A stretch of DNA of 64,000 nt, from NCBI RefSeq assembly GCF_041146795.1, contig NC_135182.1, positions 3,806,501 through 3,870,500 of the forward strand, written 5' to 3'. Under the pieces are notes generated by a model that made no database searches, was not told where the DNA came from, and saw only the letters and a list, made by a program, of their open reading frames with translations. The translations under genes and the position numbers were made by a program. Positions 7,935 to 40,168 of the stretch are shown here, one piece after another. The DNA is from Maylandia zebra. Its lineage: Eukaryota; Chordata; Actinopteri; Cichliformes; Cichlidae. Each line of letters begins with the position of its first letter. The first letter of the stretch is position 1.

Positions 7935-8078
7935 AGGGCTGGACTGGGACAAAAAATCAGCCTGGGCATTTTGACTAGAGACTGGTCCACCAGGTATTAT
8001 AGGAAAAACCATAAAGCCTTTGAATGAAAACAAACGTCGTTGTGACAGTGATGTACACTGTCTTGTACACTGTCTCTA
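7935..8078 (+). repeat. Terminal-repeat-like dispersed repeat fragment
   Basis: Begins CAGGGCTGGACTGGGAC, a start that resembles the CAG-type ends of fish DNA transposons. No matching inverted end was found in the window. The class is uncertain. Confidence 0.3.
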
Positions 8079-8290
8079 ATATTAGGGGACTTTAATCATG
8101 TCTCGCTGGACTCCACACTGCCCACCTTCACCCAGTATGTGACCTGCCCCACCGTAGGCAATAAAACATTGTACTTAATGTATGCCAATGAAAAAGTGGC
8201 ATACAGTTCATCACCTCCCCCTGCCCAGGGAAGATCCGATCGTAACCGAGTGCGTCTTGTCCCTGTGTGCAGCCCTTACTGTGCAGGGAG
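8079..8290 (+). pseudogene. LINE endonuclease fragment
   Basis: Plus-strand frame with GDFNHVSLDSTLPTF, NKTLYLMYAN and the GRSDRN block that ends the apurinic endonuclease domain of fish L2/CR1-type LINEs. Only about 65 codons are present and both ends are truncated. Confidence 0.65.
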
Positions 8291-9551
8291 CCACTAATCA
8301 CCCACACAGTGCAGAGATGGTCCGCGGAGGGCATATAAATAAATAATAAAAGCAAGTAAATGACAGTATGCTCTTTCTGAAACAAACAAAAGGAGACCTT
8401 AACTTTTATGAAAATACCGCTTTACTCAGTTTAAAGTAATACCACTGTATAATAGCCTTCAAATTTAATAATGTTAACAGTATCTCAGGAATATTTTTCA
8501 AATCTCACCTTTTCCCCTTATTTTTCAGAGATTACAAGTTCATGTGTGACATTTATTTAAACCACCATGTAGCTAAAAGTAAAAACAAACACTGTAGAAG
8601 CACTTGTGGCTGTGTCCTTTGTGAACACACATTAGGGAAAATGAAAAACATTCATTTATAGAGTGTTTGATCTATAAACATGTACCACTGTGTAATCCTG
8701 TTTTTGGATGAACTGAGGCTTAAAAATATAGGCTAGAAAACGACTGTTCATTTCAGGGATTTTGGTTCCTTATCAGCGGAGTCAGACAGCATGAATATGA
8801 TGAGGCTTGTAGAGATGACAGTAGGCAAGCAGACAAGTTTCCTGAGGTTGGGCTGAATGAACCTAGAACACAGGAAGAAACCTAAACAAGCATAAGGAAC
8901 TTTAGCTAAATATATTGTCACGTACAGCCAAATGACAGTAATAAAGAAGGTAAGCCGTGACCATAGAAAAAGCAAAGCAATCACTGGATTGACTGTCCAA
9001 ATTGCTACACACTTTTTAAGCATCGTTCACCAACAAACTGAGTCTAACAAATCATTTTCTTTACTTTGGTAATTACAGTTATTGCCTTATGTATAAAATA
9101 TAATTTTAATACCAGTGTTCATTATCTTGACATTATTTTTTTACAAAAAACACTAGCTTTACAGCCATCATCTCTTACATAATTCTACCACAATACTACC
9201 AAATTCTACCACATTTACATAATTGATTTTTAACCAGGTTATAGTAAAAGGCCAGGTGCCAATCTCAGAGTTAACGCCGGAGTTTAAAGTCAGTTTGTTA
9301 AAACTGCTTTGTTCTCGAAAGCAGTAAAATTAATTCATAACTTTTAATTCTGAGTTGAGATGGATTCTTCAGTTCTTGGTTTGAGAACAGATGAGGGTAA
9401 ATTCATTTAACCTTTTACCTTGACTTAAGCACATAATTGTACTTCATAGCCCTCGTCAATGGAACCCAATACCAGTATTTGACAGTAACAGGTAAGCCTC
9501 AAATTTAATTTTTAAATAGACAAGACACCATGAGAACTGACATTACAATAT
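8291..9551. other. Region without a recognisable gene
   Basis: AT-rich sequence downstream of the HECT gene. It holds one hydrophobic minus-strand frame of 91 codons (8748-9023) with about two membrane-like stretches and no splice context or homology that I recognise. I see no terminal repeats and no coding exon. Confidence 0.5.
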
Positions 9552-9981: not shown

Positions 9982-12900
9982 CTACACCTTTCCAAATCCC
10001 AGGGATCCTTTTAATGCATCGTTCATAAGATCTTTGAATTGATCTTCATCTGCAACACCTCTTGGGAGATACAGGGATAAGCTGCACATTGATTTGTATG
10101 GGAAGCGCCACATCCCTGACTCCTGATCGTAAAAGTCTATGTTGCAGGACTGTGGGAACCCCAGTGGTGGAAGTAAGTCAGCCCCAGTTATAAAGACCAG
10201 CAGCTCTTCAAATGTGTGGTCCACCTCTTGCTCTGTTAAAATACATACAAGTGTTAAATAAGGTGCAATGTGTAGATTTATAATCAGTTACACTGACTGC
10301 ATAGTAGAGCAGTTGCGTTAATGACTATTTTGGAGTCAAAAACAGGTTTTTAGGCAAAACCATTATTGCAAAGCATTGTATTAAAAAAAAAAAAATACTC
10401 AAAGCAATCCTGCCCTCCTAAGACAGGAAATTAATTTTGGTCCTCCAAGTCAGACCTATATGTCAAGGACTGTTTATGCAATGTGTATTTTTTTTTTAAA
10501 GTTATTCATTCTGTCCTTGCAAGAGTACATTGGCTTTCTAGTGATGTCACATTTGCGTGGGTGTTGTCATTGCACCACTCGATTACCCTAGGACACTAAT
10601 ATACAGGAGGTTTCGTTATAGTCAATGGAATACCTGAAGGTTCTTCTAGTTAGGCAGTGCATCTAATTAACAAATGACACAAATAACACAATTTGAAACC
10701 TGTCTTAAACACTGCAAAAATACTGGGGGTGATCGTGGCTCAAGAGTTGGGAGTTCGTCTTGTATTCGGAAGGTTGCCGGTTCGAACCCCGGCTCGGACA
10801 GTCCCGGTTGTTGTGTCCTTAGGCAAGACACTTCACCCGTTGCCTACTGGTGGTGGTCAGAGGGCCCGGTGGCGCCAGTGTCCGGCAGCCTCGCCTCTGT
10901 CAGTGCGCCCCAGGGTGTCTGTGGCTACAATGTAGCTGCCATCACCAGTGTGTGAATGTGTGGATGACTGCTTTAGTAAAGCGCTATACAAATACAGGCC
11001 ATTTACCATTTACTTAATTCTCAGATGTGCTAATACAATTGAATCTTAAATTTTACCATATTTTAAATACAAGTATGTAATATAACTATTTAATATTTTA
11101 GTGTTAGGAGATGTTTTCGGTCATGTAATAAAAATAATGTTTTACCAGAAATCACAATGAAAATCAAATTACGTCCTATCAGTCTAAACAAGATCTGGTA
11201 GAGATGACAGAGGATAAAAGAAATAATCTTCAAAAAATATTTGTTGTAGGTGGTTTCCTTTCAAATACCTCACCTAAAAGGTAAAATAGTCAAAAACTTC
11301 CTCATATGCTCTAAGAAGGGGTGGATTTTGCAAAGTTCTAAGGTTTTATTGCACCCAAGTGTTGTTTCGATTTAGTTGTCTGTATTTTGTATTGTGGACA
11401 CTGTATTTAACATGAAATGCCTGAAGCAATTCAAACAGAAACAAGACATGTGTTGTATTCTATGTACTCACCCTGAATGGCCATAAGCCACCATTCCCAC
11501 TGAAAGATGGTGGCTTTTTCACGTCTGTCACTTCCAGCTGGACTCCATCCAATGGTGAAGAGATCCTGGAAGCTGTTTCTTGTAAGTTTATTTCCTGCAA
11601 TTGTAAATACAGGAAGGAACTGCTTCCAGCATCTCTTCACCATTTGCCAGAACCGACCACACGAGTCCATACCGGCAACAAACTGCTGAATCATGCTGGC
11701 AACCCTGTTGACCACAGATTGTACTCTCAATTCATACAACATAGCAAAATTGTGAAACAAAACAAAAAGTTTTGTCAAAACAAAAAGTTTTGTTTTGTCA
11801 ATTTAAACACCACCTTAACTGCAATACAGATATCAACTCAGCAGATTGATGATTTGTTTAAGTGTTAACTATTAGGGGGGAACACAATGGGAAGATGAGC
11901 CCTGACCAGGAAACTACTTTGGAATTTTCTAGCAAATTCTCACCTGTGAAATGCAAAATGAGATACAATCTTGCCCCTTATCCTCTTAACATCAAGTAGT
12001 GTGGCAGTGTAGATGTCAGGGATACCACAGCCTGCAATCCAGTCCCCAAGGTGACTTTTCAAGTCTGCCAGGTCTTCTAGGGTGCTGAAGTTGGAAACCT
12101 TGAAAATCAGGCACCTCCATAAATACATACGTTTAAAGCATTCACTAAGTGCACTTACATTTTGAGACGTTCCACTTATGAGTTAAGCTATGCATCGTTT
12201 CATTGAATTTAATTACACCTCAGCATGCACACAGCTTTACCTTTTCTATGTTCTGTTTGATGTCTTCGTCCATGAAGACCTCTACATCGAAGTCATCAAG
12301 AGATGTCTTCTGGCCACACATCATACAGAACAGGTGTCTGTTGATACACCGTGGCCCTGGCCCATTGTGTGCTATCGACCAAGCAATCAGTTTACCAGCC
12401 GTATAAAACTTGTTGCTTGACAGCAACTGCTGGCTATAGCTGAACAACAGACTGCCAGGCTTCCCCTCAAAAATCCCTAGGGAATTCTGAGTTTCGACCA
12501 TAAGTAAGCTGCAGGAAAAGATAGTAAAAAATAAAAAAAATTGAGTCAAATTGTGATTTCATCTTTGCAACAACAAAAAACACATTCACACATTCTATTA
12601 TTGTGTGGGAGAGATGGGAATGGGTTACCGAAAAAATTCCTGCCTTGGGCCTCCATAATCATCGGCCATTTCACCAACAAATTCAATATTTGGCAATTTA
12701 TGCCAGGCAAAATATGACTTAGAAAGTGCCATGCAGGCACTATGTAGGATTTTCCTTCGTCTGGCTATTATTGTACAATAATTGCTGGTGTCAAGATGTG
12801 TTTCCTGGAAATCTTTCAACACAGTCGCAAGGTCCATCTCGTCCTGAAGAAAAGGGGGGGGGGAGAGAAAGGTCATGACTACATGAAACACATACACAGC

Positions 12901-15900
12901 AGTTCTGGCAGTGTTGTTCATGAGACATACATGTGAATCATTTCGTTCAGGGGAAGCCAGGACAGCCTCATCCAGGTCTGATACTTCTGACTCTGCAGAG
13001 TCGATGTAAAACTCTTCCCTAAACAGAACAAATGCATTTGATTTTTTTAATATCATGTGTACATACTGAAATGGAATGACTCATATGATAAAAGAATCTG
13101 ATTTCACATTCTTTTACTGTATAGATACAGGCACTTAAAATGGCCATGTGGTCCTTGATTGCATCTGTTGGAGCCCTTTGTCTTTTAACAAATTTCAAAA
13201 TATTAAAATATAAAGTTTGTTGTTAGTTTACTTCTATTTTTGGGCTAATCATTTTTTATTTGTAGGTTAATGCTCATTCCATTGTTTTGTTGTTTATCTT
13301 ATCAAGTCAGCCAGGAAGAATTTCAGGGCTATTTTTGATAACTTAAGAGACTGGTATAAGACCAGCATGCACTGAGATGGGCCTTTTGTTTTGTTTTGTT
13401 TTTAATTCGAGAGACAAGCAGCATGAAGCAACAAAAATGGATCTTGTTATTGGTTGCCAAAATGGATCAATAAACTATACAATGCAACTTTCAAGTTTTG
13501 ACAGTGCAGTTTTCACCTGCGCACAAAAGATTATCACAGGGCAGCAGTGTCTTCTTTTCCTTTTTTTGTGAAACATAAGGAACTGCCACTACAGGGCCCA
13601 TTTACTGGGAATAGTTTGGGTGATTTGTAGTTCCAAGTGTCTGAATGGTCAGGCTGACTAAAGTGTTATCGATGCATTTTCAGCAATTAAAAATACCAAT
13701 ATCATGACATCAACAAATCAGAAAAACATGAAAAAGCAAAACAGAAACCGAATGAGGCAATTAAACCATTGGTCTATATTCAGGGCACATAAATGTTATC
13801 AGTTCAATACATGCAACCTTTAAAATTTTAATATTCGCTGGTCTCACCCCGTATATTGTACTAATTGAGTGTCTATTTACCTATGGTGTGTGCTTTATAA
13901 GTTCCAGTTTACACTTAAGTTTTGGCATGTTATTCAACAACTACCACTTGCCTGTTAACCTCTGGTTCCTGGAGACCATGCCTACTAGAATGAGCTGTAT
14001 GGTTTTCATGCAGACCACTGCAAAGGAATAGCAGAAATATTTCATAGCAGGAAGAGGACCCCAATGCAGATATTTATTGATCTAGACTACACAAAATGAT
14101 CCAAGTTATAATAATGATAGAATTAGTTTGTACAACAGTTGTTTTACCAAAAAATAAAATAAAATCGTGCAATAGTTTAAGATTAAAATTCCAACTCATA
14201 AACAAACAGAGTGCCATTTACCTGATAACCTCTGGCTCCTGTACATTGTGCCTGCCATGGTCAGGTGTCTCGGTGTCATGCAGCACACTGCAATATGGTA
14301 AATATTGATGATGAGAGGGTGTAATGCATTTACAGTGCTACAGTCCAAAGGCAGTTGTCAAACACTTACATTGTCATTTCAGACTGCACAACTTCTCCAC
14401 CAGTTGAGTCCTCATTGGCTTCTGTAATCTAAAACACCAGAGTATTAAAATATAAAAGAAATGGAACAACAAATGACAAACAAGAACAGAGGACAAGTCA
14501 AAGACAAGAACCAAAACAGCCACACCTAAAATGAATGAAAGCATAACCACAGAAGATCAGTCTTTGGGTAGGTATAACTTAGGATAACTGAGGGGGGAAA
14601 ATAAATAAATAAATAAATAAATAAAGCAAAGGTTAAGGACATTAACAAAAGACAATGAAAAAGCCAAAACCCAGGAAACTGGGATTACAAGAACAAAATG
14701 ACCCTAACCCTATGTTGGGGGAAAACTGTAAAAGACCCAGGAGAAATAAAGACACAATGAGACAAAGTTACTTTCTTTATCAAACGTGTACACGGGTGAG
14801 CTGCAAAGAACAACTCACACCATGCACAGTGGCTTGGTAATTTTTATAGGCACAGAGCACAGAGACAGTGAGAACAGGATAACAAATAATAAACAGATAA
14901 AATAAAACAACTCCATATATGGTGCTAGCTCGTCAGCAGAGAGCTAGGGAAGATAAAACAATCTAAAACAATATGTCCCAGAAACAAGATGTGTTTGCTG
15001 GGAAAGTCTAAAAAAGATAATTCTAAACTAATCTAACCATAGGCAGAGGGCAGACAAAAGGCATCTTTGTACATTTAAAAGAAGGTAAAGAAACATAGAA
15101 TCATTTTTCCTGTAACATTCCCTCCTGTTTTAACTTATTTTAAATGTATACAACAATTGTCTGTGAAGGTTATTTATTAAGTATCTTAAGCAATTTTTTA
15201 ATTTTCAAAATGTCAGCATAGCAGAAATGGAAGTCATTTGGTCTAAAGAATAAAACAAAAGAAAATAATAAAAAGAAAAACATAGTAAATGAAAATCATA
15301 GTAAATGAAATAACAAGTGGAATAAACAAGAAAAAATAATAAAACTAAAACTACAAAAAATAAAGGATAAAAACTAAAATGAAAACTTTGTATTTAAAAA
15401 TGATGAAAACCTAATATGTAAAATGAAAACTTCAAAAAATACAAGGATGAAAACCTTATATTTAAAATGATGCAAACCTTAAATTGAAAACTTTATATGT
15501 AAAATGATGAAAACTTCATATTTAAAATGAAAAACGTTATGTTTAAAACTGAAAACTTCAAAAAATAAAAGGATAAAAACCTGCATAACCTACTAATGTT
15601 TTAATCAGTGCGTGATCACTTGACAAGTCATTTTTAATCACCACGTCATTTATTAGCAGTTATTACAAGTTCTCCTCTAACAGAATTGCAACGGGATGCT
15701 GGTCTTCTTCAGGCACGGCAACATAAGCAGTCATTGTAGTTGTTATCATCTTTGAAATCATTACTCTTAGGCATGGCAACACACACAACACTAATATGAG
15801 CAGTGCTATCATGATGAGACCTAGAAGGAAAAATGGCTTTGCTACAGCAGCCAGCCATGAACCGCTGAACAGCCAGTCCAGCCAGCCTTGTGCTGTAGCT

Positions 15901-18900
15901 GCTCCAGGTGTGTGGTCAGTGACATATTTTTGCAGACCGGTCAAATTCTGCAAAGCTTCATAAATGTCTCCTCCAGTTTCGTATCCATCAGGGATAAAAG
16001 TGCAACATGTTTCCCCGATCAGCTTGCAAACTCCTCCTTGTGATGCTGTTAGCAGGTCTAGTGTCAGTCTGTTCTGCAGCACCATCGTTCTGATGGCCTT
16101 CTGTTCTCCTGCTAAAGCCGGTCCCAGGGTCTTTGTCAAAGTTGATGTTTCGTAGCAGAGCATATCGGTTGACCTCCACATGATCCCGCACCTCGGCAGC
16201 TCCAATGCCGGGGATCAAGCTCTGTAAGAATTTCACTCCTCCTCAGATGCGAAACTCTGGTTCCTTTACTGCTTGGTGCCGTCCGTGCACATCCTGTCTG
16301 GTACTGAGTCTTTGTTTGTAGTGGCATCCGGTAGATAGGTGAGTAGGCAGCTCCCCCACTGCCCGCGATCCATTGTTCATCACACATACTGGCAGTTGCG
16401 CTGCGTTCAGCTTGTTCAGTAGAATTACATCAGGCAGTGGGTCTGAGACTTGGGGCCAGGTCAGTAGGTAGGTCTGTCCGGAACAGTTCACATTTGTGGG
16501 TGATGATGACCTCCAGGTTGCTTTTGCTGGGATGCTGTAGTTGGCCTTGGACCAAAGAGTACCGTAGCCTGGATGTGTTGCCAGGCCCAACAGACACCAA
16601 CTGCGATCTTCAGGTATGCTGTACGGCCACAGGCCAGACGTCTGCGAGGATAGGGGCATATGGGTACATGCATAGCAGTCAGTTTTATTATTCCAGTGAG
16701 CTGTAGTGTTCATAAACTGCCACCAAAAGTTAGTGGCGTAGCCATGGGGAAACTTGGTGTACTGTCCTTTGTCATACAGTGTCTGCTTTTTCTCCATATA
16801 GCGTGACTTGTTGTCCCTCACGGAAGCAAAGGTGAGGAGCCCAGCCATGGTCAGGGCCGCTGCAGTTGTTAAGAGCCACCACCTCATGACGACGGGACAC
16901 ACCCTCCTGTCGCGAGTAGACCCCCTGGCCAGGAAAGCTGACCCCTCCACCGGGCGAGATCACAACAAGCCTGCCGTCAGCTGTGTTTAGATGGCTTCAC
17001 TGACTCGCCTGCAGTGACTCTGATGGATCCAGGATGGTCGTTCCGCTATTTTGCAAGCTCCAATTTTTCCTTTGGAGCACTTTGATCAGAACCCAGTCAC
17101 CGGGCTGTGATCTGCAAGACACTTGATAGACATCATTACATTCTTCGTCATTTACAATCATCTCTTTATTTTCCTACAACTTAGACATACATTTTGCTAC
17201 TGAAATTGTATCTGCCTTTTTCACTGGGTAGATTTCTGGCCACTTTGAGAATACATCTATAACCACTAGGGTGTATTTTTACCCTTGGCATTCATTTAGC
17301 TCAATAAAGTCCATATGGATTGTGTGGTCTCAGGTTTCCCTGAGCATTATATTTTTGACACGTCATGCACGTTCTGACAAATTGTTTTGCTGAGGTTTCA
17401 AAATTTACAGTGTAGAATTTACAGTGTAGAAATGAGAGTTGACAATACTGGTCAGTCCCCCCGTTGACAAATGCGTACAGCCATGAGTCACTAATGCCGC
17501 CATTTTGTGGAGGAATTTTGGCAACACTAGCTTGCCATAACACATCATTAAGTCGTTTGTCAGAACTGCACCGTGTTTTAGCCATTTTGCCTGCTCTGCT
17601 GTGCTTGCTGCTTTTTGTTCATTTTTCAACACATCCAGTGTAATCTGATGTGTGTTTACTGCCATCAATGTGATGTTTGTCTTTTGTGCCGCCTATTTTG
17701 CTGCTCTGTCAGCAAAATTGTTGCCTGTAGTAATGAAAGAGTCAGTAGGCGTTGTAAGAGGTTGGCATGGTGAACCGGTTTTCCAGTTGGTGTAATCATT
17801 CCTCTGTTATGCCAAATTTTTTGCAAAATGATGCACAGCAGAGAAAACATACTGGCTGTCTGTATGTATGTTTATTAGTTTGTCTTTGTGTATTTAGCTT
17901 TCGCGTATCACAGCTATCAGCTCAGCGCTCTGTGCAGAACATGAAGAAGAAAATGGTTTTGCTTCTATTATTTTACTATCTGTGGTTACTGCGTAACCTA
18001 CACAATTTCGGCCTGTGCTGTAAGGTCAAATGCTAATACCAGAAAAGAATGGCATGACTGCTATCTTAAGTTTTGTCAGAGCGTCTCTACCTAGCAAAGT
18101 TACTGGACACGACGGATCATATGCATTTAATAAAGCACCTGCGGCCACTTGCTGTATGTACTAGTTCTAAAGGGGCAGTTAATTGTTGTACAGTTGTGTG
18201 GCCTGCAGCTGACTTTACAACTAATTTGTCCTTTGAAAACTGTCAGTTTAAGTGGCTGCCTCAAAACTGTTTTGCATTATTTCTCTGTGGCCTACTCCTA
18301 CAATCTCGTGGGAAGTGACCTTCCTCTCCACGGTTCTAGCAGGCGTTGTCTCTATGTTATCTGCTGTTTCTGCGTGGCTGTCTGCAGCCTTGGTGTTTGT
18401 GACTTTGCTCGCCTCTCTGTTCCTGATAGCCACCTGCGGATTAGTGTTTTAGTCTGTTGTCAACACATCAGCCTTATTTTGAAGTTACAGAATGCTTCTT
18501 CTTTTTTTTCTTGGTTTGGGAGAATAGATGCAACACTACATTTTCACTTAAGGCAATTTTAAATAATTTCTAGTTTTTCAAACAATTCATGGATCTCACA
18601 CATTTCAAACTTTCAAGTTAGGGTTGTTTCCCATTTATACAAATATATATATATTTAACTTTGCATTCCTCACAGCTCATAGCTCACAGCTCTAAACCTA
18701 GGCATTTTTCAATCATATGCCTAATCACTATGTGTCACTGTGATTCTCAAGTATTGTCACAAGTTCGTTTAAATTCGTTTCCAAAACCAACAAAATAATC
18801 AAACAAAAACAAAAAACATAAACGTGTCAGGACACAAAAGAAAAAGAAAAATGCTGCCACCCGAACAAGGCAGAAGTCTGCATATGTTGGCTTTTAATAG

Positions 18901-21900
18901 CATGCAGCTTGTAACATGGTAGACTAATGTGCCTGTGTTAATTCAGCTCCATATTATTGTGTGAAGTTGCACTGGGTTGGGAGTGGTTTTGTGGTTGTCA
19001 CATTTTTGGTGAGCCAATGGCTGGAATGGGGTTGGACTAATTAGAGGCAGGTGTACTTGATTGCACTGATACACTGGTCTACATATAGCCCACACTACAA
19101 ACACTGCTGTGTTGTTTTGTCTCTCTGTGCAGTCCAGGGCCTATTATATGCCACAGCCTAAAGGCAGCAGAGTTCCAGAGGCTTGAGTGACCACTGACTA
19201 TATGCTTGCAGGGTGGTGGGTCTCCAAGGACAACTTCTAACCCTGTTAAAGGCAACATGTGGAGTGCAACTTGGCTGTGTGGCATAGCTGGCTCTGGCCT
19301 TGGGACTGTGTGTTTTTATACAATTCTTAAGTGGGACACTGGACTGTTTTATCTTTTATCTCTTGATATATTTTTTGTCAATAAATTATCTTTTAGAATT
19401 TTATTGACTGACATCTTTTTGCCCATGACTGAAACGGTTGGTCAGACCTAGAGTCTTTCTTTGGGTGTGTTACAGCAGCTTCTGCTCTAAAAGAAACAAA
19501 TAAATAAAAAGAAAAGAAAATGTGGAACATGCTCATCAGCTTAGCAGTGTCTACATATTTAATTCAGCTTCTCAATCCTGTAGTTGTAGCTGTTGTCTAC
19601 AGGGTTTTGCTTATTGGTTGTTATTATAGGTGTGCTCTATATCTCAGCAATGTGTCATTCTAGGATGATAAGTTTCAAGCTGGTCAAGTGCCTCTATGCA
19701 CTTCATTAGTTTAGTTATTCTCTGTATTGTCTTCATCTCACATGTCATTACACTGAGTTTCAGCAAACCTTAAGCTTGATGCAGACTACTGCTTAACAAT
19801 TATCCACCTCACATCATAACCGATTAAGGTGCCTCTTCATATTAATATTATGTCATTGTTAATATTATCCTCTTTGTCTTATATAACAGCAATAGCATAT
19901 TATAATATTTTATCAGTGTGTACCATTATACTACTACTGAGCCAATTTGTTAGTTAGGATCATCTTATTCAGCAAACAGATAATTTTGAATTCATCCAAT
20001 CTGCGGTCACATTTGTTCTCTCTGTTGCATGGCGGAACAGGCAGTTCTATTATAATATATTATTTATATTTTATTTTGTATCCATCAAGGGCTTCAGATG
20101 ACCTGCAGAATCATCCTTTTCCCAAGGTGGAGACAGTTACCTTTTCACACACTGTCCTTGGCTGAACAGTGACACAGCCTTAATATACTTTATTTATGTT
20201 ATTAAAATATTTTCGTGTGAATTATTTGCTTTATATTCATTTTATACATTGTGGGCATGGTCATCATGCCAACTGTGTTTCATTGATAATATCACTTTAC
20301 AGGTTGTTATCCTTGGTATTATTAATTTCAAATACTCTAAAGATAATTTCTACTGTAATTTTCCCTTTGTTTATCTTTATTTCGTACTTTTTATATTTAT
20401 ATCTACTCAGTGGGGTCTGTTTTCAACCCTTTTAAACTACCTCAAACTACTTTGATCTCTAGTTTTCACTTAATAAGGGATTATTATGTTCTTCCTGATA
20501 TGGGTGTTGCTGCACATGCGGCTGCAGGAATGAGTGATGGTTTACTAAAAGGATTGTGGACACTGCACAGTGTCTCGTCTTCTGGTTTTACTAAACTGGC
20601 AGTTGGATTCTGTTCTTCTGACTGTTTATATTTTGTTTTCTTAAATCTCTCTCTGTTTTTGTCCGGCGTCTGGACTTTTCTTTTCTCACCACTGCTCGTC
20701 AGCAGGAATGAGTTTTAATTTCACTTGCTTGATTACCCATCTTATTTATGTATTTACTTATTTTTGTTTATTAAGTAATATATACACGATACAGCTGCTA
20801 TCACCTTCGCTGGTATTAGAGACGAGAGTGGTTGCTCACACGCCCTTCTACTTTCGGACTATTTCCAAAAGCGGTGTGAACTTTACGAGACGGAACTCGA
20901 CCGTTCTCTCAACTCACCAGCACGTCAGTGAATAGCAGTAAAAGAAAAACACAGTAGGAGCAGCTCAGTCTCTTATTGGACCGTGAAAATTCAGCTTGCT
21001 CCGTTAATTAAAACAATACACACACACACATTCACATTCACACCTATTCGCGCGATCGGAACCCTTATCATAAGGGGAGCTGCCAGTCTTTCTATAGACG
21101 AGCTACTTATTCCCTAGACCCTGTCTAGACCCAGCTGGGGGAGCTACCCAGAGCTCCAAACCTAACCCACAGAAGTGGGGAGCTTCCAGTCGACGAGCTC
21201 CAAGCTACCAGCCGACGAGCTACTTTAAACCCACAGAGGTGGGGAGCTTCCAGTCGCGACGAGCTACTTTCGCTATTTTAAATTCCCTGAATTTAAAACA
21301 CGCTTTTACGCAAGATTGTGTCAGTGTGTCTGTATCTACCTGGTCGGTGTCGCCGGGTCTGGTCCACCTCGATCGGGCCCCACCACCGTGGGTCGCTTTC
21401 TAAGACATTGGCCAAGACCCGAATTTAACGCTCTTGGTCTTTTTCCACACACCTGGTGTGTGGGCTGTCGACAGGCGAACAACGTGGACTGGTCACGGAG
21501 ATGGGACACGATGGAGGTGCTCCGGCTCCGAAGGACCAAGAAATGTTGGGGGAAAACTCTGTAAAAGACCCAGGAGAAATAAAGACACAATGAGACAAAG
21601 TTACTTTCTTTATCAAACGTGTACACGGGTGAGCTGCAAAGAACAACTCACACCATGCACAGTGGCTTGGTAATTTTTATAGGCACAGAGCACAGAGACA
21701 GTGAGAACAGGATAACAAATAATAAACAGATAAAATAAAACAACTCCATATATGGTGCTAGCTCGTCAGCAGAGAGCTAGGGAAGATAAAACAATCTAAA
21801 ACAATATGTCCCAGAAACAAGATGTGTTTGCTGGGAAAGTCTAAAAAGATAATTCTAAACTAATCTAACCATAGGCAGAGGGCAGACAAAAGGCATCTTT

Positions 21901-23389
21901 GTACATTTAAAAGAAGGTAAAGAAACATAGAATCATTTTTCCTGTAACACCCTAAAATACTGTTAGACCACAGTTCAAGCTTGCTCTACTGCATTTCTGT
22001 TATTAACAGTGAATCAACTGAGGGGGAATTATTTAAGCATAGCCATCTGGCATAGTGATCAGATGAATGTCTCAAATCCTTTTGGGAAAATCACAGCATT
22101 TATTATTCTGAGCAGTAACATGTTAAAGATGTCTTATACAATACTAGGTTGACTGGAGCGCCACTGAGTTACAGTAATAGTGACAATTATGCCATATCAG
22201 CCACCCGAGTGGAACATTTGAATACCTTTGGACGGACATAAAGATTGGAGCGACCCAGTAGGTTTCTTGCTCTAATTTCTTGGGGCGTCTCCTCTTCAAG
22301 AGGAAGAATGAGCCGCTGTCCATTCACTTTGCATAGATCGAACTGCAAAGGTATGTCTGCAATATTGTCCCGTAGTGCCTGCCTGAATTCAGTTGCATTT
22401 AGGTTTACAGGAACGACCACTCGAGTAGCAGGAGTGGCATCTGTAATCAAATTTAAACCAAATTAGCTTTCCCTAAAAACGGAAAAGGGTAAATTGTCAC
22501 ATTGTAGTGTCTCAACATCAACTTATTGGTGCAAGGAAATAAAGATTACAAAGGTGCTAAAAATCTAATGCCAAATTCTACAATTTGTAAACAACTGACA
22601 CCATGATGTAATTCTCTTTTTTCAAACCCATCACTCCAAATAATTAATATTAATATAAATATTGATTACCCCTATGGGATCGGTAGTGTGTCAGTGTCGG
22701 ATTCCTTAGTTCTGACACCTTAAACGTTAACTGGCGATGTCTGGTTCTCCCGCCTCTTGGTCTGCGCACTGGTCCACCTCCGTGCTGTTGGCGGAAAACT
22801 CCAAAGCTATCATTAGACCATGAGATAATTTAAGTCAAACTAATGACACAGAGACCCCCCCCCCCCCCCCAAGAAAAAAAACGAAAAGAAAAAAAAAACC
22901 ACCCAACACACTTAGAGTAAGGAATGAGTGTTCAACACATCGGTGTTTATTGTATGCATTTTTCGATTGTCTCGCAAATTAAATGCTCCCTGAAACTATG
23001 GGATATGCTACATTTATAAACTAAAATCTTTATGCATAAATGCACATAACAGGGATTAAAATGACTGTCATTTGAAGTCGTCGATCTAGGATAGATATTT
23101 ATGATTACAGAATTTGTTGTTAAATGCTGTCGATTGAATTGTAACAGATAATTAGTAAACGAGCCATTTATTATTTAAAAATGTTAAAGTTATTTCGTTT
23201 TGCAAGAACAAAGAAGGCGCAAAGCTAAAAGCTTGCTAATAGAGTAACCACCACCAAAGCATTTCACCTTTGTAGAAGAGATGTCCCCTCTTCACTGTCA
23301 TCTTGATTCAGTAGCCGGTTAAATTGGGCATTCATTCTGTCTCTGATATCAGTGAGTCTCCGTCGAAATGCAGCGCTCCGTTCAGACAT
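9982..23389 (-). CDS. HECT-type E3 ubiquitin ligase, G2E3-like, 12 exons, 624 codons
   Basis: Predicted HECT ligase that accepts ubiquitin from an E2 on a cysteine. Exons on the minus strand: 23389-23268, 22806-22670, 22440-22226, 14428-14370, 14287-14222, 14017-13952, 13018-12931, 12843-12629, 12508-12241, 12098-11944, 11704-11472 and 10232-9982. The summed length is 1875 bases, exactly 624 codons plus TAG, with all phases compatible. The HECT domain covers about residues 252-624. It includes the N-lobe signature YGGPRQEFF at the exon 8 end, the [10 protein letters not shown] block, and [10 protein letters not shown], where the predicted catalytic Cys591 is encoded at 10084-10086. Residues 1-250 have no domain I can name. 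Intron 3 carries an 8-kb insertion region. An in-frame ATG at 23425 would add 12 residues. It belongs to the large fish family annotated as G2/M-phase-specific ligase-like. The target is unknown. Confidence 0.88.
10725..11010 (+). mobile_element. tRNA-derived SINE
   Basis: It has a tRNA-like head with A-box-like GTGGCTCAAGAGTTGGG and B-box GGTTCGAACCC, then a conserved core, and a GTAAAGCGCTATACAAATAC tail of L2 type, which suggests mobilisation by an L2-like LINE. It lies in the last HECT intron, antisense to the gene. A related copy is at 54,166-54,421 on the minus strand. Confidence 0.85.
13952..14287 (-). repeat. Tandem duplicated 66-bp coding exons of the HECT gene
   Basis: Exons 14287-14222 and 14017-13952 are both exactly 66 bases, both phase 2 to phase 2. 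They encode related peptides: [18 protein letters not shown] and [18 protein letters not shown]. Their introns are therefore symmetric, and either exon could be skipped without a frameshift. The second has a GC donor (AG|GCAAGT) instead of GT. Confidence 0.85.
14599..14626. repeat. (AATA)n microsatellite
   Basis: About seven AATA units in HECT intron 3, just left of the provirus. Confidence 0.9.
14713..15117 (-). repeat. 3' LTR of the endogenous retrovirus
   Basis: 405 bases, TG...CA ends on both strands, preceded on the minus strand by the purine tract at about 15118-15131 (AAAACAGGAGGGAA). An ATTTATTT-type signal region lies near its 3' end on the minus strand. Confidence 0.92.
15200..15600. 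repeat. A-rich degenerate tandem repeat between env and 3' LTR
   Basis: Irregular repeats of AAAATGAAAACTT-like units, roughly 12-30 bases long, fill the segment between the env end and the purine tract. Confidence 0.7.
15663..16950 (-). pseudogene. Broken gamma-type retroviral env
   Basis: The surface-subunit frame runs 16950-16243 with an N-terminal hydrophobic signal-like stretch and several N-glycosylation sites. One in-frame stop lies near 16243. The same frame then continues toward the fusion-peptide region, and a frame change near 16.12 kb leads into the transmembrane-subunit frame, which ends at 15663. That part carries the C-x6-CC motif (CKLIGETCC) that marks gamma-type Env with a covalent subunit link, and a membrane span near 15830-15760. 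One stop and one frameshift make it non-coding as it stands. Confidence 0.85.
16993..18330 (-). pseudogene. Retroviral pol 3' remnant (RNase H and integrase pieces)
   Basis: Minus-strand frames show an RNase H segment (about 18050-17650), the integrase HHCC zinc-binding region (His near 17480, CMTCQ near 17360) and the start of the integrase core near 17300-17200. A C-terminal integrase-like segment at about 17140-17040 follows almost directly, so most of the catalytic core appears to be missing. Stops and frame changes are frequent. It cannot give a working enzyme. Confidence 0.7.
18400..21050. other. Non-retroviral-looking interior of the provirus
   Basis: Here gag, protease and reverse transcriptase would be expected on the minus strand, but no frame over 70 codons resembles them. 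On the plus strand 18960-19420 looks promoter/terminator-like: a CATATAGC box near 19081 and CAATAAATT near 19380. 19450-20940 is AT-rich with no coding signal that I recognise. Confidence 0.4.
21166..21265 (-). repeat. Direct repeat in the retroviral leader
   Basis: 34-36-base units at 21166-21199 and 21230-21265 share a CCCACAGARGTGGGGAGCTT core and the GACGAGCT end. Further GAGCTAC copies lie at 21101-21125 and near 21150. The core is self-complementary (CCCAC...GTGGG), so each unit can form a hairpin. The position between primer-binding site and gag start is where packaging signals lie in retroviruses. Confidence 0.6.
21521..21538 (-). other. Retroviral primer-binding site
   Basis: TGGTCCTTCGGAGCCGGA starts with the TGG expected for pairing with a tRNA CCA end. 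It resembles the 3' end complement of tRNA-Tyr with one extra base. The tRNA assignment is inference. Confidence 0.6.
21544..21949 (-). repeat. 5' LTR of the endogenous retrovirus
   Basis: 406 bases, matching 14713-15117 except for two short indels. It is immediately followed on the minus strand by a 5-base spacer and the primer-binding site. Confidence 0.92.
22855..22895. repeat. C-run and A-rich simple sequence
   Basis: About sixteen consecutive C bases, then an A-rich stretch, in HECT intron 1. Confidence 0.9.
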
Positions 23390-23420
23390 GACTGTCCACA
23401 AAAAGTCCGCCAAAAGGCTG

Positions 23421-23423
<3 letters not shown>

Positions 23424-23497
<74 letters not shown>
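23424..23497. repeat. (TA)n microsatellite at the HECT 5' end
   Basis: About 37 TA units start immediately upstream of an in-frame ATG (23425) and 35 bases upstream of the chosen ATG (23389). Extending the frame gives an artefactual Tyr-Ile repeat. Confidence 0.97.
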
Positions 23498-23539
23498 CAT
23501 CCCGAAAATTCAAAGTACGGCGGGAGAAGGTACATTGTT

Positions 23540-23631
23540 TGTGATTGGATCAGCAAGACTGAAAGTTGTGGGGTTTTTTTAATCCACCCCTTACCACAAC
23601 CTGTGATCAGAATTTGTGGTAACCAATCACA
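23540..23631. promoter_or_regulatory. Inverted CCAAT boxes between the divergent genes
   Basis: TGTGATTGG at 23540-23548 and its perfect inverse CCAATCACA at 23623-23631, about 150-240 bases upstream of the HECT ATG. Paired CCAAT boxes are bound by NF-Y in many TATA-less and bidirectional vertebrate promoters. Function here is inferred. Confidence 0.4.
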
Positions 23632-23983
23632 GTCAACCTCATTTTTATGTTGTCTCAATCAAGCTATGTGCAACAACCTACATACAGGTGAATGGATACG
23701 AAATCTCTGCACCAACAAAAAACACCGTAAGTACCCTAGTTAATCTCAATTACTGTTCAACTTTGCTAACTAAAAGCTAAGCGATGATTCAGAAACATTG
23801 CTTTGTCCTTTTAAGCGCATGTTACATGTTAGCTTTGTAGTAAGCGAAAAAAAAAAAGTCATGCTAACCTTGGTCCGTTAGGAATGTTGCCAACATGCCA
23901 TTTTAGGTGAGGCATGTTAATAAGGTCTTTAATATGGTACTCCGTTTAGCCACTTTATATTATTTAAAATACGGTTTTATAAC

Positions 23984-24375
23984 GGGGCAGCACGGTGGCA
24001 CAGTGGTTAGCACTGTTGCCGCACAACAAGAAGGTCCTGAGTTCAATTCCACCATCAGGCCGGGGTCTTTCTGTGTGGAGTTTGCATGTTCTCCCCGTGT
24101 TTGCGTGGGTTCTCTCCGGGTACTCCGGCTTCCTCCCACCGTCCAAAGACATGCAGCTTGTGGGGATAGGTTAATTGATTAATCCAAATTGTCACTAGGT
24201 GTGAATGTGTGAGTGAATGTGAGTGTGAATGGTTGTCTGTCCCTGTGTGTTGGCCCTGCGACAGACTGGCGACCTGTCCAGGGTGTACCCCGCCTTTCGC
24301 CCTATGACAGCTGGGATAGGCTCCAGCGCCCCCCGCGACCCTGAAAAGGATAAGCGGAAGCGAATGGATGGATGG
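23984..24375 (+). mobile_element. SINE-like retroposon with 13-bp target duplication
   Basis: Starts GGGGCAGCACGGTGGCACAG, contains a B-box-like GAGTTCAATTCC, and ends in an ATGGATGGATGG tail. The 13-base direct duplication ACGGTTTTATAAC flanks it exactly (23971-23983 and 24376-24388). It has the design of fish SINE or short LINE tails mobilised by a LINE. It sits between the two divergent genes. Confidence 0.85.
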
Positions 24376-24547
24376 ACGGTTTTATAACACTTGTTACATT
24401 AGCCGGATTAGGCTAAACGGTACTGCACTGCCATCCCAGATAGCAAGACGACATTGAATTGATGTTGATTCTATAAAGTACCGGAGAAAGTAGATTGAAT
24501 GTTCTTTTGTTATCACTGATTTATGGTCTAGTTACAGTTCACCAGCT

Positions 24548-24808
24548 ATGTCGACGTGCAATTTATGTATATCTGACCGGGAAATTAAAGCAGCGATCAC
24601 TTGGACTGTTCCGTATCACCCCTCTTACAGTGGTACATCCCTCCAGGTAACCATTCACAAGTCTTGTACAGTAGAGCGGGAATTACTCTCAGCGGAATTG
24701 AGAGGAGAAAGTGGATGCAAGCTACCGTTAAACTTGACTGAAGAAGAAGAGAGGAGAAAGCATATAAGTTCATGCACTCCACTGGCCTGCACCACGATTA
24801 GTATAAGG
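24548..24808 (+). other. Possible 5' exon upstream of the integrase gene
   Basis: An 87-codon frame from ATG 24548 runs into a strong donor (AAG|GTAAGA at 24808). Joining to the next acceptor (26876) would hit a stop after the integrase ATG in another frame. So it would be a 5' UTR exon or an unrelated frame. The peptide has two Cys pairs near its start (C-x2-C-like) and no family I recognise. Confidence 0.3.
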
Positions 24809-25384
24809 TAAGAATGAATGAATTATATTCTATTCTTTATTTATAGGTTGTTTACAGTACAGTAAAAAAAAAAACTCGTTAATATACAGTTTCGGACAAA
24901 ATGTGTAAGCCCGAAATTGTGTCTACTTTCATCTTATAGTCCGGCAACAAATAAATTGCACTGCGAACGCAGTCCATCAACAAAGAAAACATTTTCGTTT
25001 CATACTTTTCCACTAAGCTAAGGCTTCGAGGGTTCCTTTGTTAGCCTTGTCGTCGCCTCGGCCACCATTGACCCAGACTGTAGCTCTGTGGTTGCTTTTT
25101 TTGCATAGTACTAAAAAAATGTAAATCTGTGATAAATGGTAGGTAAACGTAAAGGTAACTGTATAAATGTGTTCAATGACTTTGTTACTTTTGATGATTG
25201 GAAAGCACCCGCTTCAGTTCGCACACGAAAACTTTAGACTCAGTTCGATTGCTCACGCGGCATGCCCACGTGACTTTACTTCGCAAGCTCACCGGAAAAA
25301 TCAATGCGCAATTATGTGAGGTAAAAACTATAACTTTAATCTCAGCCAAACCCATTTACTCAGGAACAAATACAATAGTTTAAA

Positions 25385-26172
25385 AAGCCAAACAATAACA
25401 TTTTTAAGTTATCTAAGTGACTTATATATATTTAACCTGAGTAGCGAAAGACGGCGGTGGGTTTGAAAACAATTTGCCGGGAGTCCGGTGTTCTCACGGC
25501 TCTAGCACTCGCATCCCCAGGCTTCTACCTTTCTACCTATAAAACCCGGAGAGCAGCCAAATGGCTGGTAGGCTTTTAGCTAAACTTTAGCTTCAGCCAA
25601 GTGGAAGCTTAATTGGCTTGTCATTCATATGTATATTAGGTTGTTACCTGGGAATTCTGGAGGGAGGGGAGTGGGGGTGTGTGATTGAGGGGGTGGGGGA
25701 GCTGCTAAAAGCTGTGCACTTCCTTTTGTGTTTCATCTTGATGCATTCTCAATCATCCAGGGAAATAAATCTCCAAAAGTCACCAACTTGGAGTGTTTCA
25801 GTTTGCCATCTTAGGGAGAAATCAACACACATGGGTGTATGTCCTTTGTTGCTGAGATTTATTGATAAAAACAGTACAAAAAACCAACCATTTTTACACA
25901 TATTTACAAATAATAATAAAAAGTGAGTGAGTACATTTCAACATTTTCAGCAATCACTCACAATCCTGGCACTGCCATGGTATCTGTAGTCTGCATTTAC
26001 CACATGTGTATCTGTTGCAGTGATATTTGAGGTTTATACAGCTATATTTCATCCTGAAAATATGTTAAATGTTTATTTTGTGACCCAGAAAGAATAATCA
26101 GAGTAATATTAAAACTAACTAGCTGCCGCCATTGTTGGAAACTGAGCAGGGCTGCGCTATGAATTCTGGGAC
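25385..26172 (+). repeat. Dispersed repeat, copy 1
   Basis: Segments 25385-25505, 26068-26100 and 26101-26172 recur in the same order at 46732-46830, 46848-46872 and 48316-48400. The right part contains GCCGCCATTGTTGG, close to a YY1 site. The middle (25506-26067), which has no counterpart in copy 2, carries an H-box-free unique sequence and a G-rich stretch at 25660-25700. Confidence 0.6.
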
Positions 26173-26884
26173 AGAGCTACTACTTCTTCGGGGTTTAACG
26201 GCAGCTGGCATCCTTGTACATGCAGTGCTGCCATCTTCTGTTTCAGTCCATTATTACACTCTTAAATCCACAACGAGTAAAGAAATGAATAAAGAACAGT
26301 ATATGCAGAAAATAAATAATAAAGTTAAAAGACAGCATGGTCTTCATGAACCCAGGGTACAATACAAAAATGTCGTTTTATTTAAGTGAACAAAACAATG
26401 TAGACCATGTTCATTTTGTTAATAAGTTGGAAAAAAAAACTAATGACAGCATTTAAAATAAACAAAGATAAATAACATAGATGGGAACATTTGACAATGG
26501 AATTGGAACATTATCAAAAATGATTTTTCAGATATGCAGAGTAGAAGATGCGGAGATTCAAATTTTTAACTTGGGTGTGTGTTTGAAATATGAAAATATT
26601 GGTTGACATCATTGACATACTGTTATTAAAGATAGGAATATGTATGAAACGTAGATTCAAAAGCTCTATTAACAGAACTATAACCTGTTAGAATCTGACA
26701 TTTATTTCAGATGCATTCTGTAACTGTTCACAGTCCCAATACTTAGTGATGACAGAGTGTTTCCAAAAGTGCTCAGTCACAATTTTCAGAAGACTAACAT
26801 GAAATTTTTTGATTTATTTAAATATATAAACCTGTTGAAGGTAATAATTTAATTTTTTGTCTTTGTGGGATCACAGTACAAAGT

Positions 26885-29154
26885 ATGGCCTGGAGGATTT
26901 TCATCTCAAGGTGCAAGAACATTCTTAATGACTGTACACGGCGGCTGCTGATGGACGATGTTGGGCCAGATGTGCTACAGTTAGCGTTAAGGAGGTATGA
27001 TCAAAGCATGATGGAAAACATTTAACATTTTAACTTGCATAAAATGTTTAAGGGGAATATGGCCTGAAAATATAACATGAATTAAGAAGTAATTTTTTGA
27101 TATCTTTGAGGTTGGAGACAATGCAGAGAAGCCTTCGGTGGGCAAGAGGAAGACTGATCAGTGTAACTGCAGCAGATCAACTTCTGCGTGACTTGGCTGA
27201 ATTGATTCAGGAGGTCGAACTGTCTACTCAGCATGGCCAACAAGGTAAGCACATATTGTGTCGATTCCTTGACTCATCAAAAGTGTGAAATAAATTATGA
27301 CTCTGTCTTAACCTATTTTCCAAATACACCAAACGCTTATATATTTTCAGGCTCTTTTGGATACCAGGCACCAGTGGTTTTCAACAGAGGTAGAGGCAGA
27401 TCCCTTTACCTTATCACTCGGGAACAGCTTTCATTCCTGAAGTCATGTGGATTCACTGCACCTCAGATGGCTGATATTTCGAATGTTTCACTTCGTACAA
27501 TTCGAAGACGTCTGCGGTCAGTGACTTTTGAAACCAGTGTGACTTTCAGTTCTTTTGTGACACACACCCACTGTTTATTCAAATTAAATGGTATTGTGAA
27601 ATTGTAAAAATTAGTATATTTGAATGTGCACTAACTAGTCAAGTAATGATGTATGTTGTTATGGCAGTGATAAAATACTCATGTTTTTTTTGTCTGATTT
27701 CAGACAGTATCATTTCACCCGTGCATCAATGTATGCGGAACTGACTGACAGTGCGCTGGATGAACATGTGCAGGACATTGTCGCTGGCAATGAACAAATT
27801 GGTCCTGAGGCTGTCAGAGCCTCCCTGCGAGTACGTGGACTACAGCGAAGGAGGGTTCGAGCAAGCATGCTACGGATAAATCCTGGAGCAGCTGCCATAA
27901 GAGCAGTTTTGCGGAGACCAGAACGAAGAACATATCAGGTTGCAGGTCCAAACTTATTGTGGCACATTGATGGAAATCACAAGCTGATAAGGTAACCAAC
28001 CACACTGATTTGTTGAACACCTATTTTGACCAAAGTGAAATTCAGCATTACATCAAATATAATTGTTGAACAGTGAGACACGTCCAATAGAGCCAGGCCC
28101 TGGGATGGGCAGTCCTCTAACACAACTGGTTATGTTTAAAGGGGAAGATCAGAGAACACAGAGAGCGCAAGCAACGTACAGAGAAAAATTCAAACTTGAC
28201 ATGCAATAGTGCCATGTAAATCAATTAAGACTGTGTTTTCCATTGTTTCAATAACAAAGCAGAAATAATATTTTTCTTCTTATGGACCACGGTTTTAGGT
28301 GGAGGATAGTCATTCATGGGGCTATTGATGGATACAGTCGTCTTGTGGTCTTCCTTCATGCCTCAAACAACAACCGTAGCAGCACTGTTTTATCAAGTTT
28401 CATCAGAGCCGTGGTATCCTATGGTGTACCCTCGAGGGTCCGGACAGACAGAGGAGGGGAAAACAATGCTGTCTGCCTGATGATGAACATTTTCAGAGGC
28501 TTTGATCGTGGAAGTGCCCTAAGAGGAAGGAGTACCCATAATCAGAGAATTGAGAGGCTCTGGGGTGATCTGTGGCGAGGAATGACCAATGTGTACTGTG
28601 ATTTATTTCACCACCTGGAGGAGGAAGGCATCATTGACATTGACAATGAAATGCACCTTTGGGCTCTCCATTACATCTATCTCTCAAGGATCAACAGAGA
28701 TTTGAAAGACTTCACTCAACAGTGGAACAATCATGGCTTGCGGACAGAGAGACACTTGAGCCCATTACAGATTTTTGTCCGAGGCAGCCTCCAGCAACAG
28801 GGCCGAGCCTCAACTGCCATGCAGGACATCTTTCAGACCAGAGCAGCTGCTGCTGATGGGACTATTGGTGGGACAGCTGATGGTAGTGTGACAGCCACTG
28901 AGAGTGAGACGACTGCTGCTCAGGGCTCAGGTGCAGATTCTGGTGGTGGTGGTGGTGCTCATGGTACAGATGAGCTGGGATTGCTGGTTGACTGGCCTGA
29001 GAGGATTACTGCGCCAGACATTGAATTTACTCTGGACAGAACGGTGATGGAGCAAGTGGTAGAACTATTTAATCCACTAAGTGGCACCAGAGGGAGTCAT
29101 GGTATTGAACTCATATCTGGCTTAATATACTTTCTGGACTCCACATATCACTGA
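26885..29154 (+). CDS. DDE integrase-core protein, five exons, 517 codons
   Basis: Predicted polynucleotidyl transferase of the retroviral-integrase fold. Exons: 26877-26994 (ATG 26885), 27111-27244, 27351-27516, 27704-27991 and 28299-29154. Coding length 1554 bases, exactly 517 codons plus TGA, with all splice phases compatible. A helix-turn-helix-like block lies at about residues 105-137 (TAPQMADISNVSLRTIRRRL). The catalytic triad reads as D226 (WHIDGNHK), D283 (VRTDRGGEN) and E318 (NQRIERLW), a D-D(35)-E spacing. The split between D226 and the next strand falls at the last intron. A Ser/Gly/Thr-rich linker follows residue 390, then a conserved-looking tail (LLVDWPERITAPDI). Family: the intron-bearing integrase-core genes found in many copies in fish. 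It could be a transposase or a domesticated one. Confidence 0.85.
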
Positions 29155-30355
29155 GACAGGCGTGTCACAAATTTAGAGGAGAAATAGTTTGCTGCTTTAT
29201 AAGAAAGCCCTCCGCAAAGCCAGAACATCTTACTATTCATCACTGATTGAAGAAAATAAGAACAACCCCAGGTTTCTCTTCAGCACTGTAGCCAGGCTGA
29301 CAAAAAGTCAGAGCTCTTTTGAGCCAACAATCCCTTTAACATTAACTAGTAATGACTACATGAACTTCTTCACAAATAAAATTTTTATCATTAGAGAAAA
29401 AATTACCAGTAATCATCCCACAGATGTAATATTATCTACAGCTACTCTTAGTACCATTGATGTTAAGTTAGACTCTTTTTCTCTAATTGATCTTTCTGAG
29501 TTAACTTCAATAATTACTTCCTCCAAACCATCAACGTGTCTTTTAGACCCCATTCCTACAAAACTGCTCAAAGAAGTCCTGCCATTAATTAATTCTTCGA
29601 TCTCTAATGATCGGCTATGTACCACAGGCCTTCAAGCTAGCTGTAGTTAAACCTTTACTCAAAAAGCCATCTGTAGACCCAGCAGTCTTAGCTAATTATA
29701 GGCCAATCTCCAACCTTCCTTTCATATCAAAAATCCTTGAAAGAGTAGTTGTCAAACAGCTAACAGATCATCTGCAGAGGAATGGCTTATTTGAAGAGTT
29801 TCAGTCAGGTTTCAGAGCTCATCACAGCACAGAAACAGCTTTAGTGAAGGTTACAAATGATCTTCTTGTGGCCTCTGACAGTGGACTCATCTCTGTGCTT
29901 GTCCTGCTAGACCTTAGTGCAGCATTCGATACTGTCGACCATAATATCCTATTAGAGCGATTAGAACATGCTGTAGGTATTACAGGTAGTGCACTGCAGT
30001 GGTTTGTATCATATCTATCTAATAGACTCCAATTTGTTCATGTAAATGGAGAGTCCTCTTCACACACTGAGGTTAATTATGGAGTTCCACAGGGTTCAGT
30101 GCTAGGACCAATTCTGTTTACATTATACATGCTTCCCTTAGGCAGCATCATTAGAAGACATAGCATACATTTTCACTGCTATGCAGATGACACCCAGCTC
30201 TATCTGTCCATGAAGCCAGATAACACACACCAATTAGTTAAACTGCAGGAATGTCTTAAAGACATAAAGACCTGGATGGCCGCTAACTTTCTGCTTCTTA
30301 ATTCAGCTAAAACTGAGGTTATTGTACTCGGCCCTGAAAAGCCTAGAAATATGGT

Positions 30356-38168: not shown

Positions 38169-38217
38169 TTTCCGCCACTCGGATGGCACCCTGAACGCAC
38201 CATCCGAGTGGCGGAAA
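38169..38217. repeat. Perfect 18-bp hairpin at an element junction
   Basis: Arms 38169-38186 and 38200-38217 are exact reverse complements (CCGCCACTCGG core) around a 13-base loop. It sits exactly where the L2 3' UTR stops. Confidence 0.95.
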
Positions 38218-38511
38218 AAGCGGCGTTTGTTGGAACTGAACGCCGGTTTTTTCGGCGTTTTGAATGATTGAACGGCGTTTTTTACGCCATTTCTTAACCA
38301 AACGGGTTAGAAAAGTGGCGATTTTTGGCACTAATGGCTTGCCATAGTTTGCATCGTCAAAACGCGTGAAACGCGTTTCGCAAGTACCACTCGAGTTGGA
38401 AAAATCTGAACTCCAGCGTCAAATCGCGCCGCGACAACCAATCAGCAGCCTGGTGACGTGGTTGTGACCTAGGTCAAAGAGGCAGATCCAGCCAAAGCCC
38501 TTCATTCTTCA

Positions 38512-39743: not shown

Positions 39744-39914
39744 ATACTTATATTTTATATATTTATGTTTAATGTTTTTCTGTTTGAGAATTTTAATATT
39801 ATTTCAAATTTTTATAATGACTAATGTCTCAGTTCTACTACACAGCAAATGTTGGCACACGACTTGACACATGTACAATTTATTTCTTATTATACTAATG
39901 ACAAAATACACTAA

Positions 39915-40145
39915 TACAGTGGGATGCAAAAGTTTGGGCAACCTTGTTAATAGCCATTATTTTCCTTTATAATGGCTATTATTGTTGGTTGTTACAATAA
40001 AAAATGTCAGTTAAATATCATACAGGAGACACACACAGTGATATTTGAGAAGTGAAAAGAAGTTTACTGGATTTACAAAAAGTGTGCAATAATTTTTTAA
40101 ACAAAATCAAGCAGGTGCATAAATTTGGGCACCACAAAAAAAGAA
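39915..40145 (+). repeat. Tc1/mariner-type MITE fragment
   Basis: Begins TACAGTGGGATGCAAAAGTT, the common fish mariner-like end, and includes an internal hairpin (TAATAGCCATTA...TAATGGCTATTA). The opposite terminus is missing. Confidence 0.5.
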
Positions 40146-40168
40146 TTGAAATAAACATTTAGTGTATA

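Follow-up and report, generated by a model that had tools for sequence, protein, structure and literature searches.

The stretch analysed here (the window) comprises 64,000 nucleotides of the cichlid Maylandia zebra (C16:3806501-3870500 of a 962-Mb genome) and harbours two divergent genes, coding for a HECT-type E3 ubiquitin ligase and for an integrase-like transposase. Comparison with other copies in the same genome points, with a probability that we put at about 0.93, to this locus being an old copy, riddled by insertions, of a large cut-and-paste element which carries both the transposase and the ligase and whose family falls in the IS3EU/GingerRoot superfamily. The original prediction had proposed either a large transposon or a domesticated pair: the former is borne out by the recurrence of the pair, by shared repeats and by 6-bp target duplications at some of the copies, while nothing in the analysis supports the latter. 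As far as the literature searched extends, the superfamily itself is already known, the HECT cargo is apparently the new part, and the suggestion that a ubiquitin ligase would be unusual as transposon cargo stands. The features on which this reading is based are the following:

9982..23389, minus strand: HECT E3 ubiquitin ligase gene, 12 coding exons, 624 residues (gene model, PF00632, fold of a 94% identical relative)
HECT exons, first half, minus strand: 23268-23389, 22670-22806, 22226-22440, 14370-14428, 14222-14287, 13952-14017
HECT exons, second half, minus strand: 12931-13018, 12629-12843, 12241-12508, 11944-12098, 11472-11704, 9982-10232
26885..29154, plus strand: rva_4 integrase-like transposase gene, 5 exons, 517 residues (gene model, PF24764, fold of a relative)
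Integrase exons, plus strand: 26885-26994, 27111-27244, 27351-27516, 27704-27991, 28299-29154
8075..8498, minus strand: left terminal inverted repeat, preserved in its inner portion, with 95-97% identity to the repeat at the right end of other copies
38169..38346, plus strand: right terminal inverted repeat, of which the outermost 178 bp remain, with CCATA as its end and as the right element boundary (comparison with other copies)

The HECT reading frame is open across its 12 coding exons (from 23389 to 9982), and the several alternative acceptors of exons 2 and 12 also leave it open (601-624 residues), the 624-residue set first proposed being one of these variants. The integrase frame is likewise open over its five exons, so that both gene models hold, as does the divergent arrangement with about 3.5 kb from ATG to ATG. 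A frame at 24548-24811 was considered as a third gene of the element and rejected, being interrupted in the copy on C1.

The HECT protein matches PF00632 (Pfam profile search, E=3.7e-8) and has the expected Cys591 near its C terminus, a catalytic cysteine which is invariant in 24 of 24 aligned relatives. The predicted model of relative P0121, which is 94% identical to the window protein, has the bilobal HECT fold (predicted local distance difference test score 75.3, with residues 1-123 unreliable) and its best Foldseek match is the HECT domain of Smurf1 (E=7.9e-13), those of HUWE1 and NEDD4 also being among the matches (E about 1e-12). The gene is thus a predicted ubiquitin ligase, as judged from its sequence and modelled fold. 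Its 74 database relatives are mostly from fish, and the nearest of them are named G2/M phase-specific E3 ubiquitin-protein ligase-like. Upstream of the HECT domain, two families have stretches which may resemble ubiquitin-interacting motifs. Viral contigs scanned for carriers with the HECT alignment gave nine pattern matches, none of which was confirmed.

The integrase matches PF24764 with E=2.6e-91 in the Pfam profile search, rva_4 scoring far above the rve model, and the predicted residues D226, D283 and E318 are all present, with 34 residues separating the last two. No HHCC zinc domain ahead of the core is matched by Pfam up to E=10, and helix-turn-helix models match only below their cut-offs. 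The predicted fold of the core of relative P0001 is nearest to IstA and to retroviral intasomes (E about 3e-6, with low TM-scores, i.e. template modelling scores), and an InsO-named match occurs among the database relatives. These number 768, and the 120 listed come from fish, echinoderms, molluscs, cnidarians, sponges, a fungus and others. Cutting and pasting of the element is probably the task of this gene.

Copies, terminal repeats and movement

A search of the same genome with each window protein located this head-to-head pair at nine further loci (on C1, C3, C4, C6, C9, C15, C19, C22 and C33), giving the linkage of the two families elsewhere that the original prediction had set as its test. 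Outward from both stop codons the copies run into one and the same sequence in inverse orientation, and terminal inverted repeats are evident within copies: 1627 bp at 100% identity on C1, 1533 bp at 99.5% on C3 and 1611 bp at 99.2% on C33. The copies share the ends TATGG..CCATA, homology stopping sharply at ..AATGGCTTGCCATA, and 30 places, distributed over 22 loci, match the 29-base terminal motif when as many as three mismatches are allowed, compared with none for a reversed-pattern control. Eight loci have both ends. Six of these hold both genes and span about 12-18 kb (C1, C3, C4, C6 at 34.66 Mb, C22 at 6.98 Mb and C33 at 4.30 Mb), and the remaining two are shorter, at about 8.6 kb (C21, 9.67 Mb) and 6.7 kb (C13, 31.5 Mb).

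This comparison also corrects the limits first given for the window copy, which covered both genes (9982-29154) and not the whole element. Terminal repeats, reported as not visible, exist at 8498-8075 (the inner part of the left one) and at 38169-38346 (the outer 178 bp of the right one), and can be recognised solely by comparison with other copies. The element ends at 38346, with the terminal motif at 38315-38343 (one mismatch), and its right end has not been lost to an L2 LINE (long interspersed nuclear element), as had been thought. The outer part of the left repeat is absent both from the window and from the 9 kb to its left. Over the shared parts the window copy and the C1 copy, in which both genes are open, are 93-98% identical.

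Target duplications, which the original prediction had proposed to look for along with shared boundaries and inverted repeats, were found at some of the eight copies with both ends. They are 6 bp long and exact in two (TGTAGA on C33, CCTCTC on C21), and two others are one base off, with one extra base on C22 and one base missing on C1. When the flanks of the C1 copy are joined on one 6-bp target copy, the resulting 77-base sequence is matched exactly at least 40 times genome-wide (40 of 256 candidates scored), and the flank of the C33 copy contains a similar site; the C1 empty site is paralogous, not orthologous.

The copies on C4 and C22 are 99.97% identical over two stretches of 3861 and 3276 bp (together 7.1 kb), with a single mismatch in each; a third stretch of 3267 bp, which overlaps these in part, has one mismatch and seven gap positions (99.76%). 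As they sit in different flanks, this near-identity implies recent movement. Both have the same 2-bp deletion in the integrase frame (read in C4, the C22 stretch being ungapped against it). Should this deletion abolish the protein, an outcome that splicing might circumvent, one of the two at least was moved by the transposase of another copy. Movement in trans is thus probable on these sequences. Alignment against the window flags a possible frame change in the HECT gene of C6 and in the integrase genes of C19, C4 and C22, of which C4 was inspected, and a stop in the C3 integrase.

These copies bear directly on domestication, according to which the ligase would be a host gene now serving the fish, with the integrase adjacent by descent. 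Both window frames being open in a copy which its sequence indicates to be old would fit this account, and so would a constraint on HECT stronger than that on the integrase (see below). However, the pair exists in many copies, among them young ones which are almost identical and occupy different sites, and no single conserved locus was identified in this genome, the only one considered, so that domestication is very improbable.

Genome-wide linkage and classification

We have investigated how often the two domains are neighbours using an rva_4 profile search and two HECT lists, one from a profile search and one from a protein search. The candidates scored were 129 of 366 for the HECT profile, 103 of 129 for the HECT protein and 150 of 323 for the rva_4 profile. 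From the HECT protein matches 52 of 82 places entered the count, the remaining 30 representing additional exons of loci that had been entered, and two integrase loci from the protein search were added to the rva_4 profile list. At least 37 of 137 rva_4 clusters have a HECT cluster at 20 kb or less, where 0.73 would be expected by chance, and the two genes lie on opposite strands in all 37. Ten of these cases are head-to-head, which are exactly the window family, and 27 are tail-to-tail. HECT is therefore common as cargo of rva_4 elements in this genome, although among the listed places 89 of 126 HECT clusters are not linked to rva_4. An alpha-kinase control, the only one used, gave eight matches at seven loci, none of them near a listed rva_4 place when compared by eye.

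One copy of each of two tail-to-tail groups was delimited. That of a second family (C22:6046341-6056810) has the ends TATGA..TCATA and no exact duplication, whereas that of a fourth family (C22:27177604-27187370) has the ends TACGG..CCGTA, an exact CAGAGA duplication, and a 450-bp repeat (91%) containing 20/40-bp tandem units. Outside cichlids, the linkage is supported by two predicted proteins of Triplophysa tibetana with both domains in one gene model, which implies that the domains are there on the same strand, unlike in the 37 cichlid cases.

Two further groups were noted during this survey. A large cluster of regularly spaced HECT matches at 11.9-13.1 Mb of C6 has no listed rva_4 neighbours. 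Another rva_4 family, 41% identical, occurs at C8:14716839 and at related places; its gene has 39-bp tandem units nearby, and HECT was not found there.

The termini, the duplication length and the integrase type together make the IS3EU/GingerRoot superfamily the probable placement of the element. According to the published descriptions, IS3EU elements have TA..TA ends, usually 6-bp target duplications and a DDE transposase without an HHCC domain (PMC10045372), and the families of rust fungi have the ends TAYGG..CCRTA, a transposase and an alpha-kinase in opposite orientation, and alpha-kinase and TET/JBP as accessory genes (PMC12730594). The cichlid element resembles the superfamily in its DDE transposase, also without HHCC, in its TA..TA termini and in its 6-bp duplications, and differs from it by the added HECT ligase and by inverted repeats of about 1.6 kb. 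The rust-type ends TAYGG..CCRTA are found in the window family and in the fourth family, while the second family fits TA..TA only. With the rust-fungus elements it also shares an accessory enzyme gene oriented oppositely to the transposase, the cargo being HECT here and alpha-kinase and TET/JBP in fungi. A word search of the main texts of both papers (PMC10045372, PMC12730594) gave no occurrence of HECT, and no report of HECT with IS3EU was found in the literature searched, a coverage beyond which lies Repbase, possibly with such an entry.

An element of 12-18 kb with an integrase of retroviral type, inverted repeats of about 1.6 kb and 6-bp duplications could also be Polinton/Maverick-like. 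Yet the integrase belongs to rva_4, far above the rve model, the termini TATGG..CCATA match IS3EU, and the open frames listed showed no Polinton gene, such as one for a protein-primed DNA polymerase or a capsid, although no profile search of a complete copy was directed at these genes; such an assignment is hardly credible.

Selection and the possible role of the ligase

We have compared the window with individual copies, plus one C15 row, through the ratio of replacement to silent substitution rates (dN/dS). For HECT, the window and C1 differ by 23 replacement and 26 silent changes (dN/dS 0.24, p=2e-6), which argues that the frame is kept by purifying selection.

A number of observations weigh against the interpretation of the locus as a copy of an IS3EU transposon carrying a ligase. 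Between the window and C1 the integrase shows 12 replacement and 4 silent changes (dN/dS 0.93, p=0.55), so that purifying selection is not significant, these changes being too few to tell selection, and it is not significant either against C33 (p=0.08). Silent divergence between the window and C1 is 26 of 410 sites (0.066) for HECT versus 4 of 367 (0.011) for the integrase (p=1e-4); a sixfold difference within the same element suggests that the window copy may be a mosaic, the sole explanation that we offer. Four of the eight two-ended copies (C3, C4, C6 and C13) have no simple 6-bp duplication, and two copies, those on C3 and on C6 at 29.4 Mb, have a right end without the final TA. Finally, among the listed places, 100 of the 137 rva_4 clusters have no HECT within 20 kb.

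The last result indicates that the integrase family can do without HECT and, together with the decay of the window copy by insertions, it would agree with HECT being a neutral passenger, a host ligase gene captured once and carried without use to the element. We consider this unlikely, though clearly less so than domestication: the HECT frame is under purifying selection between lineages, the catalytic cysteine is conserved in every aligned relative, and HECT accompanies rva_4 in no fewer than three families here, in two arrangements, and also in one gene model of Triplophysa.

In the IS3EU reading that we prefer, the element consists of the DDE integrase-like transposase gene and the HECT-type ligase gene between inverted repeats of about 1.6 kb. 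By analogy with its family, the transposase would bind the repeats, excise the element and join it to the target with a 6-bp stagger. The ligase would raise the success of the element, most likely by marking with ubiquitin either its own transposase or a protein of the host which acts in silencing or repair; of the two, counter-defence is speculatively favoured over regulation of the transposase. We tentatively extend this to a proposal, which we hold to be possible but rather less than even, that animal IS3EU elements have a standing slot for a ligase on the opposite strand, serving as a counter-defence which destroys a host silencing or repair factor, much as TET/JBP would act against methylation in fungi.

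The Helitrons of animals, zebrafish included, are described as carrying the deubiquitinases VTD and OTU (PMC9741609). The likeness lies in a ubiquitin enzyme borne by an animal transposon; the Helitron enzymes remove ubiquitin and belong to a rolling-circle element, whereas an enzyme of HECT type attaches it and belongs here to a cut-and-paste one. Beside the Helitron deubiquitinases, a protein-modifying enzyme of the ubiquitin system is here seen as a recurrent passenger of animal cut-and-paste transposons. The G2/M phase-specific E3 ligase-like fish genes could be taken for a host family; at least the copies in this genome are transposon genes, a warning for annotation that at least part of the genes so named belong to mobile elements. 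If the counter-defence reading is true, many of them would be transposon counter-defence genes, and the target of the ligase would show how fish restrain DNA transposons. With young copies available whose ends are identical, the question can be put to the test in a cichlid.

Insertions in and around the window copy

Between its two repeat remnants the window copy is interrupted by a retrovirus, a LINE and other insertions, and its right flank is itself a repeat:

About 14713..21948, minus strand: endogenous retrovirus with two long terminal repeats in a HECT intron, limits set by the alignment gap relative to C1; foreign to the transposon
29180..30407, plus strand: nested L2-like LINE fragment (as named in the original prediction), at which homology with the other copies breaks off; likewise foreign to the transposon
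38347..40500 (end approximate), no strand assigned: right flank, a Harbinger-like repeat hit by several other insertions of the family

The retrovirus is absent from the C1 copy. At 31042-33057 there is an open frame of 671 residues of BEL/Pao retrotransposon type, with integrase and DUF5641 matches. An insert of about 760 bp with a repeated edge of 8-9 bp, lying 657-1416 after the integrase stop of L012, is present in C1, C4, C6, C19 and C22 and not in C3, C33 or the C6 copy at 29.4 Mb; it is a nested insertion marking a subfamily.

Flanks were read at 19 of the 22 insertion loci, and seven of these insertions (the window, C1, C4, C6, C13, C22 at 9.5 Mb and C5) fall into a stretch of about 75 bp in one Harbinger-like repeat, those of C1 and C22 (9.5 Mb) at the same base. 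This clustering has p about 1e-15 even with 20,000 copies of the repeat assumed, insertions being taken as independent, and suggests a strong target preference for the repeat.

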